35,391 nucleotides of DNA, from NCBI GenBank assembly GCA_016792685.1, contig JAEULQ010000016.1, positions 1 to 35,391 on the forward strand, given 5' to 3'. The DNA is from Tabrizicola sp. (GTDB lineage: Bacteria; Pseudomonadota; Alphaproteobacteria; Rhodobacterales; Rhodobacteraceae). Under the pieces are notes generated by a model that worked only from the letters and a program-made list of their open reading frames with translations, was not told where the DNA came from and made no database searches. This document shows positions 1 to 8,757 of the stretch, piece by piece. Each line of letters opens with the position of its first letter. The first letter of the stretch is position 1. Made by a program: the position numbers and the translations under genes.

Positions 1-755
1 CGGGCGCAGATCTTGTCGATCTCGTCCAGAAAGACGATGCCGTTTTCCTGCACTGCTTCCAATGCAGCCACGCGCACTGCCTCGTCATCAAGAAGCTTGT
101 CCGCCTCTTGCCCGATCAGCACGTCATAGCTTTGCAGGACAGTCATCCGCTTGCGGCTGGTCCGGCCCCCGAACGCCTTGAACAGGTCCTGCAACCCCTG
201 CATCTGCTGCTCCATCCCCGGCATGCCAAAACCCATCGGCATCGGTGAAGCATCGGGGACGTCGATCTCGATCATCGTGTCGTCGAGCTCGCCACGCTTC
301 AGCTTGGCGCGGAACATCTCGCGCGTCTGGTCGCGGGCATCCTTGCCGGCGATGGCCTCGATCACCCGATCCTCGGCGGCCTTCTGAGCGCGGGCCTTCA
401 CCTCGTCCCGCATCTGGGCGCGGGTGTCACTGATCGCCACATCCACCAGGTCGCGGATGATGCTGTCCACATCGCGGCCGACATAACCAACTTCGGTAAA
501 CTTGGTCGCTTCGACCTTCAGGAAGGGCGCGCGGGCCAGCTTGGCCAGACGACGGCTGATCTCGGTCTTGCCGACACCGGTCGGGCCGATCATCAGGATA
601 TTCTTGGGATAAACCTCATCGCGCAGGTCGTCGCCAAGCCGCTTGCGGCGCCAGCGGTTGCGCAATGCCACGGCAACAGCCCGCTTGGCGTCCTTCTGGC
701 CGATGATGAAGCGGTCAAGCTCCGAGACGATTTCTCGGGGGGTCAGGTCGGTCAT
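1..755 (-). CDS. hslU: ATP-dependent protease ATPase subunit HslU (3' part missing, runs off left edge)
   Basis: AAA+ unfoldase of the HslVU (ClpYQ) cytoplasmic protease, which feeds unfolded substrates into the HslV peptidase. About 251 residues are readable from the ATG at 755. They start [20 protein letters not shown], with Walker A GPTGVGKT at residues 57-64, then [14 protein letters not shown], the intermediate (I) domain rich in Met/Gly (PMGFGMPGM), and Walker B IVFLDEID near residues 240-247, just before the window edge. The family is about 435 residues, so the arginine finger and sensor 2 regions lie outside. The start overlaps the stop of the upstream DUF2157 gene by 4 bp (ATGA), so the two are probably co-transcribed and translationally coupled. 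hslV is on the same strand but about 1.5 kb away, with two other genes in between. Confidence 0.97.
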
Positions 756-1810
756 TCGGTCGATCCATAGGGCGGAAGTCGGGATTTGCCCGGAAAATCA
801 GGCAGGACGCGCATGACCCATGCGCGGAGTTGCACCCACCAGGTGCCGATACCGGTGATCAGGGCGCCAAGCGTGATGAGGATGAAGATCCAGCCGGTTC
901 CGCCCGCCTCTCCCATCACCCATCCGATGACGATGGCGATATAGGCAATAGCGGCAGTCAGGAAGGAGCGGCGGTCAATCACCAGGGCCAGAACGGTGAT
1001 CAACAGAAGCGCGATTGCCAGCAGACCCACGCCGCCACCGTTCAGAAGCGTAACGGCGACCGTGTTGACCAGCGCCGGTGCCGCAAGCAGGTGACACCAG
1101 AAGGCGGTGGCAGCGTGGCGTCCCAGCCGGTGCGGGTCGCGGGTGTCAAACCACATGCCAACCAGGAAGGCGCCGATTCCGAACAGCAGCGTGGCGGTCG
1201 CGAAGGCCGGGCTCTCGCCCAGATCGAAAAGCGCCTGATAGCCGTCCGAGCCCATCATCCCGGCCAGATTCGCGGCCGACGCGGTGATGGAATAGGTTGC
1301 GCCCAGAAGGAAGCCGCCCGTCAGGAAGGCCGAGAACGGCAGTCGGAACCGGCGATACCAGGCCATCATGCCAAGCGCTGAAAGCAGAAATCCCAGGATG
1401 GCGACCATCCGCTCGTCCAGCCCGGCATGCGCAAGGACGGTGAAGGCAAAGATCACCAGACCGATTCCGAAGGCGGTGGCGAGGACCATGGAGGGCAGGG
1501 TCATCCGGCGCTTGAGCGTGAAATATCCGGCCCACCACCAAGCGATCGCCGCCGTTGCCAGTGGGACAAGCGTCAGAAGCGCGAACCCGCCGAAGACGGC
1601 CAGCAGGGCGCTCACGCCAGACAAGAGAATGACCAGGCCGATCGAAATGAAGATTTCCGAAAATCCCCGGAAGAATTCAAAGGGCTCATCTTCTGCCGGA
1701 AGCGCGGCGCGCTTGCCCGACCGATCGTTTGCCAGCGCAGTCAACGAGGCGGCTTGGGCTTCGGTCAGGATACCGGCCGCTACGGCGGCGCGCAGGTCTT
1801 CTGGGGTCAT
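752..1810 (-). CDS. DUF2157-type multi-pass membrane protein
   Basis: 352 residues. The N-terminal about 45 residues form a soluble helical segment ([20 protein letters not shown]), followed by a run of about nine to ten hydrophobic segments interrupted by short polar loops (for example WYRRFRLPF and DTRDPHRLG). This layout, with a short N-terminal helical domain and many membrane spans, is what I know from DUF2157 proteins, whose function is unknown. It lies immediately upstream of hslU with a 4-bp stop/start overlap, which suggests an operon. It is divergent from the BrnA-like gene across a 202-bp AT-rich spacer. The assignment to DUF2157 rests on layout and general resemblance and is not certain; the membrane nature is clear. 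Confidence 0.82.
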
Positions 1811-1892: not shown

Positions 1893-1936
1893 TTGTATAT
1901 ACCCCTGGAAGGCTGTATATATGGTTGTATATATAC
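1893..1936. repeat. Cluster of three TGTATATA palindromic motifs between divergent genes
   Basis: Three AT-rich palindromes stand in the spacer between the DUF2157 gene and the BrnA-like gene: GTATATAC at 1895-1902, GTATATAT at 1915-1922 and GTATATATAC at 1927-1936. Each is preceded by TT or CT. They are spaced 12 to 20 bp apart. In a GC-rich genome such a cluster is likely to be a protein-binding region or promoter element. The same core occurs four times in the flavoprotein gene at 7555-8757. Confidence 0.6.
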
Positions 1937-2012: not shown

Positions 2013-2297
2013 ATGTCCGACGAACCGCCGAAGCGTCTGAGCCTTGCTCAGAAGCGCGCATTGGCCCGGCCGCTGTACTTGGACGATGCCAGCCGGGTTG
2101 AAGCGGACGAAGAAGAAGACGCATTCCCAGAGGGTTGGACCAAGGCCGTCGCGCCGGACCAGATGCGCAAGAAGTTGATTTCGTTGCGGGTCGACCCGGA
2201 AGTACTGGAGTTCTTCAAGGCGCAGGGCCCGGGCTATCAGACGCGGATGAATGCCGTCCTTTACGCCTACATGCAGGTGAAGAAGGAAATCAGCTAG
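2013..2297 (+). CDS. BrnA-family antitoxin-like protein, without a neighbouring BrnT toxin
   Basis: 94 residues from the ATG at 2013 (an in-frame ATG at 1971 would add 14 residues but has no ribosome site). The N-terminal two thirds are charged and probably flexible ([15 protein letters not shown], then [13 protein letters not shown]). The C-terminus, [20 protein letters not shown] followed by [15 protein letters not shown], matches the ribbon-helix-helix DNA-binding end typical of BrnA antitoxins. BrnT normally lies directly upstream of brnA in a two-gene operon; the 202 bp upstream hold no such ORF and hslV converges downstream with an 8-bp overlap. It is therefore an orphan and may act as a stand-alone RHH regulator. 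A partner elsewhere in the genome cannot be excluded. Confidence 0.85.
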
Positions 2298-2850
2298 CCG
2301 CGATCCGCTCGATGGTCAGATTGCCGTTTGTGTAGACGCAGATATCAGCGGCGATGGCCATGGCCCGGCGGGCGATGTCCTCGGCAGGAAGGTCGGTGGT
2401 CATTAACCCACGGGCCGCCGCGAGGGCGAAGTTGCCGCCCGAGCCGATCGCCGCAACATCGTGCTCCGGCTCCAGAACATCCCCGGCCCCCGTGATGACA
2501 AAAAGCTCGCGGCCGTTGGTCACGATCAGCATGGCTTCAAGGTTGCGAAGGTACTTGTCCATCCGCCAGTCCTTGGCCAGATCGACGCAGGCGCGGGCCA
2601 GTTGCCCAGGGGCGGCCTCAAGCTTCTTCTCCAGCCGTTCAAGCAGAGTGAACGCATCCGCCGTCGATCCGGCGAAGCCCGCCACAACATCATGTCCACC
2701 CGGAGACAGGCGGCGGACCTTGCGGGCGGTGCCCTTGATCACCGTCTGGCCAAGCGAGACCTGTCCATCGCCGGCGACTACAACCTCTCCGCCACGACGA
2801 ACGGCCAGAATGGTGGTTCCGTGCCAGCCGGGAAACTTTTCGTCTGCCAT
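2290..2850 (-). CDS. hslV: ATP-dependent protease peptidase subunit HslV
   Basis: 186 residues, normal length for HslV (ClpQ), the proteasome-beta-like threonine peptidase that forms the proteolytic core of HslVU. The N-terminus contains [10 protein letters not shown]; the first Thr of this motif (residue 12) should become the N-terminal nucleophile after removal of the short propeptide. The sequence then has [25 protein letters not shown], with the Lys of the catalytic site, and the family block [16 protein letters not shown]. It follows rpsO on the same strand, but a terminator lies between. Its 3' end overlaps the convergent BrnA-like gene by 8 bp, and hslU is about 1.5 kb further downstream instead of adjacent. 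Confidence 0.97.
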
Positions 2851-3549: not shown

Positions 3550-4557
3550 TTGCTGGCATTGCTTGGTCTTTTGGGGGCCCTCGTGGCGGGGGTCGCGGCA
3601 GACGCCGTCCTGTTTCCGCGCGACAGTACGGATGCGGACGACACCGACGATCCCACACCGGATGACGAGGCTTCCCTCGACGACGGAAACATCCTGGACG
3701 ACATTCCGGTGGATGAGGGCGTACCGACTTCGGACGACATCGCAGATCCGGTCGATCCGTCGACAACACGCATCGGGGGCGACGGCGCCGACATCCTTTC
3801 GGGCCGGAACTCCGGCGATCAGATCCGCGGTGAGGGCGGCGCCGACCTGATCGACGGTCGGGGCGGTGACGACCACATCGATGCCGGCGCGGGCAATGAC
3901 GCGGTCTGGGCGGGCGCCGGTGATGACAGTGCCTATGGGCAGGATGGCCACGACAGTCTGCACGGCCAGGACGGCGATGACCTGCTTGACGGCGGCGCTG
4001 GCAATGACTCCCTGACGGGCGGTGAAGGGGATGACAGCCTGCATGGCGGAACCGGCAATGACACGCTGATGGGTGGCGCCGGAAACGACCTGATTGACGC
4101 CGGTGCCGGCAATGACTGGCTAGCCGGAAGCGCCGGGGACGACAGCCTGTCCGGCGGCGCGGGTTCGGACATTCTGGATGGCGGCGCCGGCGCCGACTGG
4201 ATGTCGGGTCTTCAGGGCGATGTCGATGACTTTGGGACCGATTATCTGAATGGCGACGACGGCGACGATACTCTTGTGCTGGGCTCGGGTGACTTTGCGA
4301 CAGGCGGGGCGGGCAATGACGAATTCATCCTGCACGAATGGATGTCGGAAAATGCGCTGACGCAGATCTCGGACTATGATGCCACGAAGGATCAGCTGGT
4401 CATCGTCTATGACGTGACCGTGCACGGCGACCCGGCGATCACCGTGGAAGCCAGTGATGATGGCGCATCGCAGACTGTCTATCTTGATGGCATGAAGGTC
4501 GCCATCGTGCGTGGCGGCATTCTGGATGCGGCGGATATCCGGTTGGTTCCGGCGTAA
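3550..4557 (+). CDS. RTX-type calcium-binding repeat protein (surface or secreted)
   Basis: 335 residues from a TTG start. Residues 1-21 are a hydrophobic segment (MLALLGLLGALVAGVAADAV) that can act as a membrane anchor or secretion signal. Residues 25-72 are a strongly acidic linker (DADDTDDPTPDDE and similar). From about 76 to 260 there are around 16 glycine/aspartate nonapeptides of the GGxGxDxUx type (GGAGNDSLTG, GGTGNDTLMG, AGAGNDWLAG), which form Ca2+-binding beta-rolls. The last 75 residues form a non-repetitive C-terminal cap. RTX proteins commonly leave by type I secretion, but no exporter genes are nearby, and the hydrophobic N-terminus is not typical of type I substrates, so a membrane-anchored form is possible. 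A CtrA box lies upstream. The ligand or function is unknown. Confidence 0.88.
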   Translation: MLALLGLLGALVAGVAADAVLFPRDSTDADDTDDPTPDDEASLDDGNILDDIPVDEGVPTSDDIADPVDPSTTRIGGDGADILSGRNSGDQIRGEGGADLIDGRGGDDHIDAGAGNDAVWAGAGDDSAYGQDGHDSLHGQDGDDLLDGGAGNDSLTGGEGDDSLHGGTGNDTLMGGAGNDLIDAGAGNDWLAGSAGDDSLSGGAGSDILDGGAGADWMSGLQGDVDDFGTDYLNGDDGDDTLVLGSGDFATGGAGNDEFILHEWMSENALTQISDYDATKDQLVIVYDVTVHGDPAITVEASDDGASQTVYLDGMKVAIVRGGILDAADIRLVPA

Positions 4558-7114: not shown

Positions 7115-7558
7115 ATGTCTGATCCGTTCGACGAAGACCTCGCCGCCCGCAAGCATACCGCCGCGCATGACCCGCTTTTTCCTGAACGGCGGGAAGAAGC
7201 CTATGGCCGCGTCATCACCGCGATAGATCAGGCACTGGTACCGCTTGGCTACCAGCAGAAGGGCTCGACCTGGAGCCGTATGTCCGAACACGGCAAATCA
7301 GCCGTTCACCTGCAGCGCAACCGCTATGGCTGGGAGGTGCAAATCCTGTTGCGTTTTGTCACCCCCGATGGGCAACCCCCGGCCACATGGGATGATGACG
7401 AGATGACCATGGAACGGTTTGGCGACGCAGGTGACGATCCCGGGCGGCTGGCGTTTCTGGACGTGCTCGACAATCCCGCAACTCTATCGCGCGCGATCAG
7501 TCTTCTGGTGGATGAGGCTCACCCCTGGCTGGAAGAACTGCATTTTCCGCAGGATTAG
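7115..7558 (+). CDS. Conserved small protein, possibly DUF4304-like
   Basis: 147 residues, acidic, no signal peptide or membrane segment. After about 25 charged residues comes ITAIDQALVPLGYQQKGSTW, then WSRMSEHGKSAVHLQRNRYG and WEVQILLRFVTPDG. The pattern 'LxPLGY.xKGxTWxR...vhlQRnrYg...i' resembles DUF4304 proteins, but I hold this loosely. It starts 12 bp after pheS, so it is probably in the pheS transcript. Its stop overlaps by 4 bp with the convergent flavoprotein gene. Function unknown. Confidence 0.75.
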   Translation: MSDPFDEDLAARKHTAAHDPLFPERREEAYGRVITAIDQALVPLGYQQKGSTWSRMSEHGKSAVHLQRNRYGWEVQILLRFVTPDGQPPATWDDDEMTMERFGDAGDDPGRLAFLDVLDNPATLSRAISLLVDEAHPWLEELHFPQD

Positions 7559-8757
7559 TGACGAATCCGCCGCGCGGCCGCCCGTCCCGCCCAACGTCCC
7601 GTAGCCCAGCAGGCGGTAAGCAGGTAGCCGCCCGTCGGCGCCTCCCAGTCCAGCATCTCTCCGGCGACAAAGACATTGGGAAGCGCTTTCAACTCCAGCT
7701 CCCCGGTGAGCGCCTCCGCGCCAATGCCGCCAGCGACCGAGATCGCTTCGTCCAGCGGCCGGGGGCCATCAAGTGGTATATACAGATGCTTCAGATGGGC
7801 GAAGGGCGCTTCGCGGGCGAACTCCATGACAAGCGCGATCTGGGCGCGGTCGAGCCCAAGCTTCCGCAAGCGGTTCGCAGTGCTTTCGCCCGGCTTCATC
7901 CTGGCGAGGCGACGCGCGATCTCGGTCTCAGAGAGATCCGGGAGAAGGTCGAGCGCCAGCGACGCGCCTTCGCGCAAGTGCTTGTATATACTGTATATAC
8001 CACCGCCTTCGACGCCAGTCCCGGAAAGGACGAATTCCCCGCGCAGCTGATTCATAACACGCGGTTGATCGGTTCCACGGTCTTCCATGGCACCTGAAGC
8101 GCAGGCCTTCAAGACAACGCCCTTCACAGGCTGGCCGAAATGCGGTGACATCTTTGCCGACCAGTTGACCCGAAACCCCATGTTCGCGGGCTTCCAGGGG
8201 GCGATGATCACGCCCTTCTCCTGCAACCAAGGCACCCAGGTCGCATCCGAGCCCAGCCGCTGCCAACTTGCCCCGCCAAGAGCCAGAACCGTGGCGTCTG
8301 GCTTCAGAACCTGCGGACCGTCAGGTGTGTCAAACCGAAAACCGTCGGCAAAGCCCGTCCAGCGCCAACGGGTACAGATATCGACACCAAGACCAAGAAG
8401 CCGTTCCACCCAGGCCCGAAGCAGGGGCGAGGCCTTCATCGCCACAGGGAAAACCCGTCCGGACGAGCCTGTATATACCTCCTGGCCCAGATTTCGGCAC
8501 CAGTCCTGGACCTCTGCGGGGCCAAATTCGGAAAGCATTGGGTGCAGCCAGGGGGCGTCGTAGTGCGGAAGGATACTGACCAGGGGCTCGTCCTTGGTCA
8601 CGTTCAGACCGGATTTCCCGGCCATAAGGAACTTGCGGCCGATCGTGGGTTTGGCTTCGCAGACCACAACCCGGATCCCGGCCCTTGCCAGCTCTTCCGC
8701 GGCCATCAGGCCGGCGGGTCCCGCCCCGATGACAAGGGCCTCAGGCGCTGGGCGCAT
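7555..8757 (-). CDS. FAD-dependent oxidoreductase, TIGR03862 / HI0933 (BaiN-like) family
   Basis: 400 residues. The N-terminal Rossmann FAD motif is VIGAGPAGLMAAEELARAG (GAGPAG at 11-16), followed by CEAKPTIGRKFLMAGKSGLN, diagnostic of the HI0933/YhiN flavoprotein group. The C-terminus has VFVAGEMLDWEAPTGGYLL and ATGRWAGRAAA, the second FAD-contact block. The catalysed reaction is not known for this subfamily. It is the last gene of a compact minus-strand unit, its start overlapping the MscS gene by 17 bp. Oddly, it carries four copies of GTATATAC, encoding Ile-Tyr, Val-Tyr and Tyr-Ile with rare ATA/GTA codons. Confidence 0.9.
   Translation of the reverse strand: MRPAPEALVIGAGPAGLMAAEELARAGIRVVVCEAKPTIGRKFLMAGKSGLNVTKDEPLVSILPHYDAPWLHPMLSEFGPAEVQDWCRNLGQEVYTGSSGRVFPVAMKASPLLRAWVERLLGLGVDICTRWRWTGFADGFRFDTPDGPQVLKPDATVLALGGASWQRLGSDATWVPWLQEKGVIIAPWKPANMGFRVNWSAKMSPHFGQPVKGVVLKACASGAMEDRGTDQPRVMNQLRGEFVLSGTGVEGGGIYSIYKHLREGASLALDLLPDLSETEIARRLARMKPGESTANRLRKLGLDRAQIALVMEFAREAPFAHLKHLYIPLDGPRPLDEAISVAGGIGAEALTGELELKALPNVFVAGEMLDWEAPTGGYLLTACWATGRWAGRAAARRIRH
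7774..8480. repeat. Four GTATATAC palindromes inside the flavoprotein gene
   Basis: GTATATAC occurs at 7776-7783, 7984-7991, 7993-8000 (the middle two as a 9-bp tandem) and 8471-8478. CTGTATATACCA occurs identically at 7991-8002 on the plus strand and at 7774-7785 on the minus strand; CTGTATATACC recurs at 8469-8479. The copies fall in three different codon phases of the host gene. Confidence 0.8.

Follow-up and report, generated by a model that had tools for sequence, protein, structure and literature searches.

In the Sulfolobales, the SegAB system includes SegB, an RHH-domain protein whose operon is preceded by imperfect palindromic sites. It has many further sites, mostly intragenic, which include a dense group close to the SegB locus; the cited extract associates it with DNA compaction and loops (PMC12284271). 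Enterobacterial MatP carries a central RHH domain, and its matS sites, according to the excerpt cited, occur more than 20 times in the Ter region, which MatP and matS organise (PMC12756933). The RHH protein CdbA of Myxococcus xanthus is described in the cited portion of its study as needed for nucleoid organisation, with peaks mostly within structural genes (PMC7156744). ZapT of Caulobacter crescentus is an alphaproteobacterial terminus-binding protein whose ChIP sites, in the cited part of that work, fall mostly in ORFs (PMC7188993). In addition, the BrnAT complex of Brucella acts as a repressor at its own promoter, to which it binds, as stated in the cited section of a review (PMC5086665).

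Here, we describe a locus of Tabrizicola sp. where the gene for a BrnA-type protein has hslV, a membrane-type ORF and hslU as neighbours. Its likeness to SegB lies in the own-promoter sites combined with many intragenic ones, the Tabrizicola protein being putatively RHH by family; in contrast, SegB, as portrayed in the extract cited above, is archaeal, works with the ParA-type ATPase SegA and has an unrelated motif. No ParA was noticed among the three neighbours of the Tabrizicola gene. In the account cited for MatP, the protein marks Ter only and also has a four-helix bundle and a coiled coil, whereas the Tabrizicola sites mark the origin region too. With BrnT-BrnA systems, the locus shares a Pfam BrnA_antitoxin protein, and the same locus holds brnT-brnA pairs in other genera; it differs from them in that no toxin gene was found alongside the Tabrizicola gene and in having sites far from its own promoter. 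CdbA binds c-di-GMP and has 569 ChIP peaks over the chromosome, with no origin or terminus clusters described in the cited portion (PMC7156744), while ZapT belongs to the MerR family and is biased to the terminus only, and no consensus motif was found for it, again within the part cited (PMC7188993). No report of the present system was found in the literature searched. We propose, with a probability of about 0.72, that GTATATAC is an old BrnA operator, that the toxin was lost, and that the orphan BrnA binds the origin and terminus domains, probably organising the chromosome.

Results

A Repeated Word in the Window and Its Home Genome

The window, i.e., the whole stretch of 35,391 nucleotides analysed here, contains five copies of the 8-mer GTATATAC: four in a flavoprotein gene and one in the promoter of the BrnA-type gene (Table 1). 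An earlier note had reported the four copies, and these were found at the positions it gave, all inside a single ORF as it had claimed; the fifth lies beyond the interval that it covered. It was also right that three codon phases are used. Its estimate of about 0.1 copies for a window of this size is of the right order, judging from a hand calculation at 63.9% GC, and none of 100 dinucleotide shuffles of the window produced a copy. The names hslV and hslU were recognised from the sequence, and we take the two genes to be these.

Table 1. Positions of the features in the window.
Feature	Position	Strand	Support or conservation
BrnA-family (PF14384) antitoxin-like protein, 94 aa, proposed GTATATAC binder, without BrnT partner	2013..2297	+	Pfam 4.7e-18; orthologues
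Promoter copy 1, GTATATAC, 118 bp upstream of the BrnA ORF start	1895..1902	.	
Promoter copy 2, GTATATAT, one mismatch	1915..1922	.	
Promoter copy 3, GTATATATAC, two words (from 1927 and from 1929) that overlap, each with one mismatch	1927..1936	.	
TIGR03862 / HI0933-like flavoprotein gene with four intragenic sites	7555..8757	-	
Intragenic GTATATAC, Tyr-Ile	7776..7783	.	In 3/13 aligned gene-bearing genomes (G000, G018, G023)
Intragenic GTATATAC, Ile-Tyr, half of a 9-bp tandem pair	7984..7991	.	Exact at the orthologous place in 5/6 mapped gene-bearing genomes
Intragenic GTATATAC, Ile-Tyr, other half of the 9-bp tandem	7993..8000	.	Exact at the orthologous place in 2/6 mapped
Intragenic GTATATAC, Val-Tyr-Thr	8471..8478	.	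Exact at the orthologous place in 5/6 mapped gene-bearing genomes
hslV, convergent with the BrnA ORF, syntenic anchor	2290..2850	-	tblastn synteny
hslU, N-terminal part, cut by the contig end, other syntenic anchor	3..755	-	Synteny

The home genome (G000; 3.58 Mb in 136 contigs, 88.9% complete, 63.9% GC) holds 14 copies of GTATATAC, a total close to the zero-order expectation by hand calculation. The word is infrequent but clumped, with five copies on the window's 35-kb contig and five within 6.3 kb of contig C18. The terminus-type sites of this genome (L003-L006, C18:12480-20045) sit in genes that, from their translations, we take to be gyrA and trmFO. A near-expected total and a word that is a TA-repeat core would be in line with chance or compositional clumping, for instance by local AT-rich mutation; the placement of the copies, described below, bears on this explanation.

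The BrnA-Type Protein and Its Own Promoter

The 94-residue protein belongs to PF14384 (BrnA_antitoxin), scoring 65.8 bits against a cut-off of 26.1. BrnA and a weak DUF3022 match were all that the Pfam scan returned; membership of the MatP family was rejected on this result and on the presence of sites beside parS as well. Its N-terminal stretch is conserved, with the consensus PKRLSIAEKRAL. BrnA proteins have a ribbon-helix-helix fold, arranged as strand-helix-helix; in this fold, a dimer places a two-stranded sheet in the major groove. Single-chain models of the present protein showed helices at residues 62-70 and 75-93, with a 10-residue mean pLDDT of 86-92 over residues 61-90, and no strand, and no solved (PDB) structure matched it by profile or fold; the ribbon-helix-helix assignment is therefore a putative one, based on the Pfam family.

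When two BrnT queries were used in tblastn at 1e-4, no hit was obtained in the 15 loci that carry the gene, nor in 30 hslV loci of the genus; weak BrnT hits (E 0.05-0.45, other strand) were seen in 3 of the 15. Because no toxin gene was found beside the BrnA-type gene, we do not regard the locus as a BrnT-BrnA type II toxin-antitoxin system. In the promoter, as would suit an autoregulatory operator, GTATATAC was present 109-120 bp upstream of the ORF in all 15 orthologues, and 14 of them had a one-mismatch copy 12-22 bp from it, the commonest spacing between neighbouring copies being 13 bp.

Copy Number and Gene Presence in the Genus

An orthologue of the BrnA-type protein (E<1e-30) was found in 15 of 32 genomes of Tabrizicola and close kin, and all 15 hold 14-28 copies of GTATATAC. 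Among the 17 genomes without the gene, 16 contain 0-8 copies; the remaining one, G010, has 12, but this genome is 59% complete and likewise yielded no hslV. The control word CATATATG occurred 0-5 times in gene-bearing genomes and 0-8 times in those without the gene. The association of GTATATAC count with gene presence gave a Mann-Whitney p of 7e-7 over the 32 related genomes, uncorrected for relatedness, and such p-values overstate independence because the counts come from related genomes. The earlier note would have given up the word if its genome-wide frequency were ordinary; the total of 14 is indeed not high, but the clumping and the split between gene-bearing relatives and low-count genomes, which are of the same base composition class, speak for it.

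In named genome records, 18 loci were found. Thirteen of them are close relatives, with 65-75% identity over nearly the whole protein, and all 13 are titled Tabrizicola, Rhodobacter, Rhodobacteraceae or Rhodobacterales, including the environmental isolates Rhodobacter calidifons and Tabrizicola flagellatus as well as T. thermarum and Rhodobacter sp. SY28-1. Most genomes of the genus, whether the sites are present or absent, also encode distant BrnA-like proteins (E about 1e-5 to 1e-8), so a paralogue could also bind. We nevertheless consider with high confidence, on these comparisons of sequence, that the BrnA-type protein is the binder of GTATATAC. This would suit the first candidate of the earlier note, which was binding by a nucleoid protein or regulator yet to be named; the product of the ORF at 2013-2297 is now proposed as the binder.

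Chromosomal Positions of the Sites

The best-assembled relative, G023 (largest contigs 1.81, 1.02 and 0.99 Mb), was used to place the copies on the chromosome, and 26 of its 28 fell into two stretches, with two elsewhere. The first (C1:262-380 kb) holds 16 copies beside two parS-type sites at 309 and 311 kb, in a region near a sign change of the GC skew, which is noisy elsewhere. The second (C3:381-548 kb) holds 10 copies around a dif-like site at 532 kb, where the strand bias of GGGNAGGG turns from 13:1 to 1:13 between neighbouring 20-kb stretches. The parS-bearing contig also carries a cluster in G001, G009, G025 and G031, with 14, 6, 11 and 12 copies, respectively. On the terminus side, copies lie 2.5-2.9 kb from the dif-like site in G025, G009, G031 and G005, and the nearest copy is at 6 kb in G000 and 12 kb in G023; these dif-like sites were located by pattern search and have 1-3 mismatches outside G023, and the same pattern search found none in the G001 stretches. 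Repeated sites that are concentrated in a domain and conserved in place would be expected of a site-specific chromosome-domain organiser like MatP or SegB, and both properties were observed here.

When 28 sites were placed uniformly in 20,000 draws, no 117-kb stretch received more than 8, against the 16 observed. Moreover, GTATATAC had the lowest enrichment p among 8-mers with at least five copies, in the origin set and the terminus set alike, and the other 8-bp palindromes and most one-mismatch variants showed no enrichment in these sets. Added to this are the retention of rare codons described below and a copy number that tracks one gene across the genus. We thus regard chance or compositional clumping as already refuted, with next to no probability left to it, and it is near certain that the clusters are real.

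The parS-type sites were found as two separate sites (0-1 mismatch) in each of the eight genomes searched, and GTATATAC differs from them; an identity with ParB-parS was rejected. A palindromic 8-mer could also serve as a restriction-modification or other methylation word, as the earlier note had suggested. This idea fits poorly with copies that are confined to two chromosome regions and track an antitoxin-type gene, and we hold it to be very improbable.

In a sample from G023, a second word, GTAGATAC/GTATCTAC, was enriched in the same two regions, being seen nine times near the origin, three times near the terminus and twice elsewhere; it is absent from the window. GTAGATAC looks like a second-class word, perhaps a weaker site.

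Sites Within Genes

In six genomes, 114 copies were listed. Called ORFs contain 106 of these (51 in phase 2, 31 in phase 1 and 24 in phase 0), a count that excludes four own-promoter copies first assigned to spurious ORFs and in which other ORFs may be weak too. This bears on the possibility that the protein is an ordinary transcription repressor whose regulon happens to be near the origin and terminus, the intragenic sites acting as roadblocks or internal operators. The clear operator array in its own promoter is in line with such a role, as are the few sites at or near ORF starts (e.g., MAVYTF). However, sites inside ORFs in all three phases, the unrelated kinds of the genes recognised so far, and the centring on parS and dif are unexpected for a regulon, and we judge this explanation unlikely.

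Copies recur at matching intragenic places across species in all codon phases, and 17 sites were exact in at least three of six mapped genomes. Nine of the 17 are intragenic sites of the origin side and six belong to the terminus side; the other two are the copy in the gene's own promoter and a site whose orthology is doubtful. In one gene, which we take to be trmFO, a site is exact in 6/6 genomes and a second, 518 bp away, in 5/6. There is also turnover, since among sites exact in at least three of the six, G009 retains 7 of 12 comparable ones and G031 10 of 13, and several terminus-side copies of G009, G031 and G023 are without a counterpart. These fixed places matter for another explanation, a titration timer, where early origin and late terminus sites would soak up an autorepressor, so that the amount left unbound would tell how far replication has gone and would control one or a few targets. 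The operator array of the own promoter and the clusters near the first and last replicated regions would fit it; in contrast, such a timer needs a number of sites and not fixed places, and many sites keep their orthologous ones, which makes it less probable still than a regulon.

At the codon level, partner species retained the rare codons ATA, GTA and ACA within the word in 55 of 76 cases, as compared with 29 of 119 elsewhere in the same genes; this count was taken over 22 G023 ORFs with a site, and the partners are related, the cases not being independent. The earlier note had foreseen that a meaningless word would be freely replaced by synonymous codons, and this is not what was found. In 13 codon-aligned gene-bearing orthologues of the flavoprotein gene, Ile was encoded by ATA in 17/17 codons at GTATATAC and in 9/191 elsewhere in the gene; the first figure arises by construction because the word spells ATA in two phases, and the informative one is 9/191. 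One site of this gene reads VYTGS in 10 of 13 gene-bearing genomes vs VFTGS in 10 of 11 genomes outside the clade, and the word therefore seems to have changed the protein too. These codon comparisons indicate that the DNA word is what is kept.

Secondary Loss of the Gene and Possible Decay of Its Sites

A tree was built from flavoprotein and hslV codons, with the site codons masked, in 30 rows. G016 and G022 are sisters (100/100) within a clade of 16 rows (96/99), of which the other 14 carry the gene; in both, the BrnA-type gene is absent and GTATATAC has two copies. The tree requires three changes in gene presence, and the window's genome stands on an unresolved branch outside this clade. 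At four widely exact sites not of the terminus side that could be compared in each, none was exact in G016, G022 or G007, and within one mismatch two were found in G016 and none in the other two. The near-misses GCATATAC and GTCTATAC of G016 are at two flavoprotein sites, and in a wider set G007, which is outside the clade, had one near-miss in six sites. This makes a thin case that sites may decay after the gene is lost.

Related Loci in Other Genera

A family-wide profile search gave BrnA-type matches (E<=1e-12) in 27 of 394 genomes. With two BrnT queries, both Pfam-confirmed, a BrnT hit was obtained in 19 of 28 loci examined outside the genus (L254-L281) and none in nine. Sixteen loci of other genera (L254-L269) are at hslV and/or hslU, both being seen in 13, and BrnT lies beside BrnA in 11 of them and is absent in five. 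Within 650 bp upstream of brnA, the word was found with at most one mismatch in 9 of the 11 loci with BrnT and in all five without it, and was exact in seven and three, respectively. Altogether, there were 21 such words in the 16 x 650 upstream positions vs 4 in the other 40,839. Among the other 12 loci (L270-L281), eight hold the word within one mismatch (six exact) somewhere in about 3 kb. Because these words stand upstream of brnA in other genera, GTATATAC looks like a general operator of this BrnA type.

The orphan genomes G420, G187, G296 and G172 have 3, 2, 2 and 7 copies genome-wide, and one copy adjoins the gene in G420 and in G187; G339 has seven copies, of which four share a 65-kb stretch by the gene. 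From these comparisons, the two arrays look like a later addition in the Tabrizicola clade.

We also observed that L271, L273, L277 and L280, which are BrnT-BrnA loci of other genera away from hslV/hslU, have an exact GTATATAC; the operator may thus be common to this BrnA type throughout the family.

Discussion

According to the reading that we prefer, GTATATAC would be the DNA site of the orphan BrnA-type protein encoded between hslV and hslU. Its original role would have been that of the operator through which brnT-brnA pairs with this type of BrnA regulated themselves. One clade of Tabrizicola would have retained the antitoxin and its operator array while the toxin gene went from the locus, and additional sites, from about a dozen to 27 in number and mostly intragenic, would have come to occupy two domains, one next to parS and the origin and one around dif and the terminus. 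The flavoprotein alignment suggests that intragenic sites arose by substitution without change of length. The protein is expected to act on single sites or on sites 9-13 bp apart, either as a dimer or in a larger cooperative assembly. Its most likely role is to bridge or mark the two domains and thereby to organise, condense or position them as the chromosome is replicated or segregated or the cell divides. Comparison of sequences shows the sites, their two clusters, their occurrence together with the gene, its secondary loss, and an operator in common with brnT-brnA pairs. The protein's physical binding, its dimerisation and its architectural function are inferred here, and we have moderate confidence in an architectural role; by analogy, the orphan BrnA would probably work like SegB, MatP and CdbA. 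The fuller account, in which a domesticated antitoxin has arrays at origin/parS and terminus/dif that were built into existing genes, with rare codons and amino-acid changes as the price, and disappeared along with the protein, seems to us somewhat better than an even bet.

If this is true, a toxin-antitoxin module has supplied a sequence-specific protein, the toxin was lost and sites accumulated, giving a new chromosome-organising system. The apparent steps can be seen in living relatives: the full pair with its operator, the orphan with few sites, the orphan with two arrays, and secondary loss. One protein with conserved arrays at both replication ends would be a new layout, and it would provide the alphaproteobacteria with a sequence-defined marker of origin and terminus, given that for ZapT, in the part cited, no motif was found (PMC7188993). 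It also makes testable why a chromosome would mark both replication ends with one word.

Other Features of the Locus

The membrane-type protein of the window (755-1810, minus strand; 352 aa) lies beside hslV and next to hslU and has no Pfam match. Its ORF is present at 26 of 30 hslV loci of the genus, whether the BrnA-type gene is there or not; at the other four, where it was not seen, the view is interrupted by extra DNA. In G012, G008, G006 and G031 (L191, L193, L194 and L208), the BrnA-type gene and hslV are separated by an additional 1.2-1.3 kb or so. Finally, an ORF at 3550-4554 of the window (plus strand) has an acidic, D-rich start, and its G023 counterpart continues with G/D-rich repeats of RTX-like appearance.
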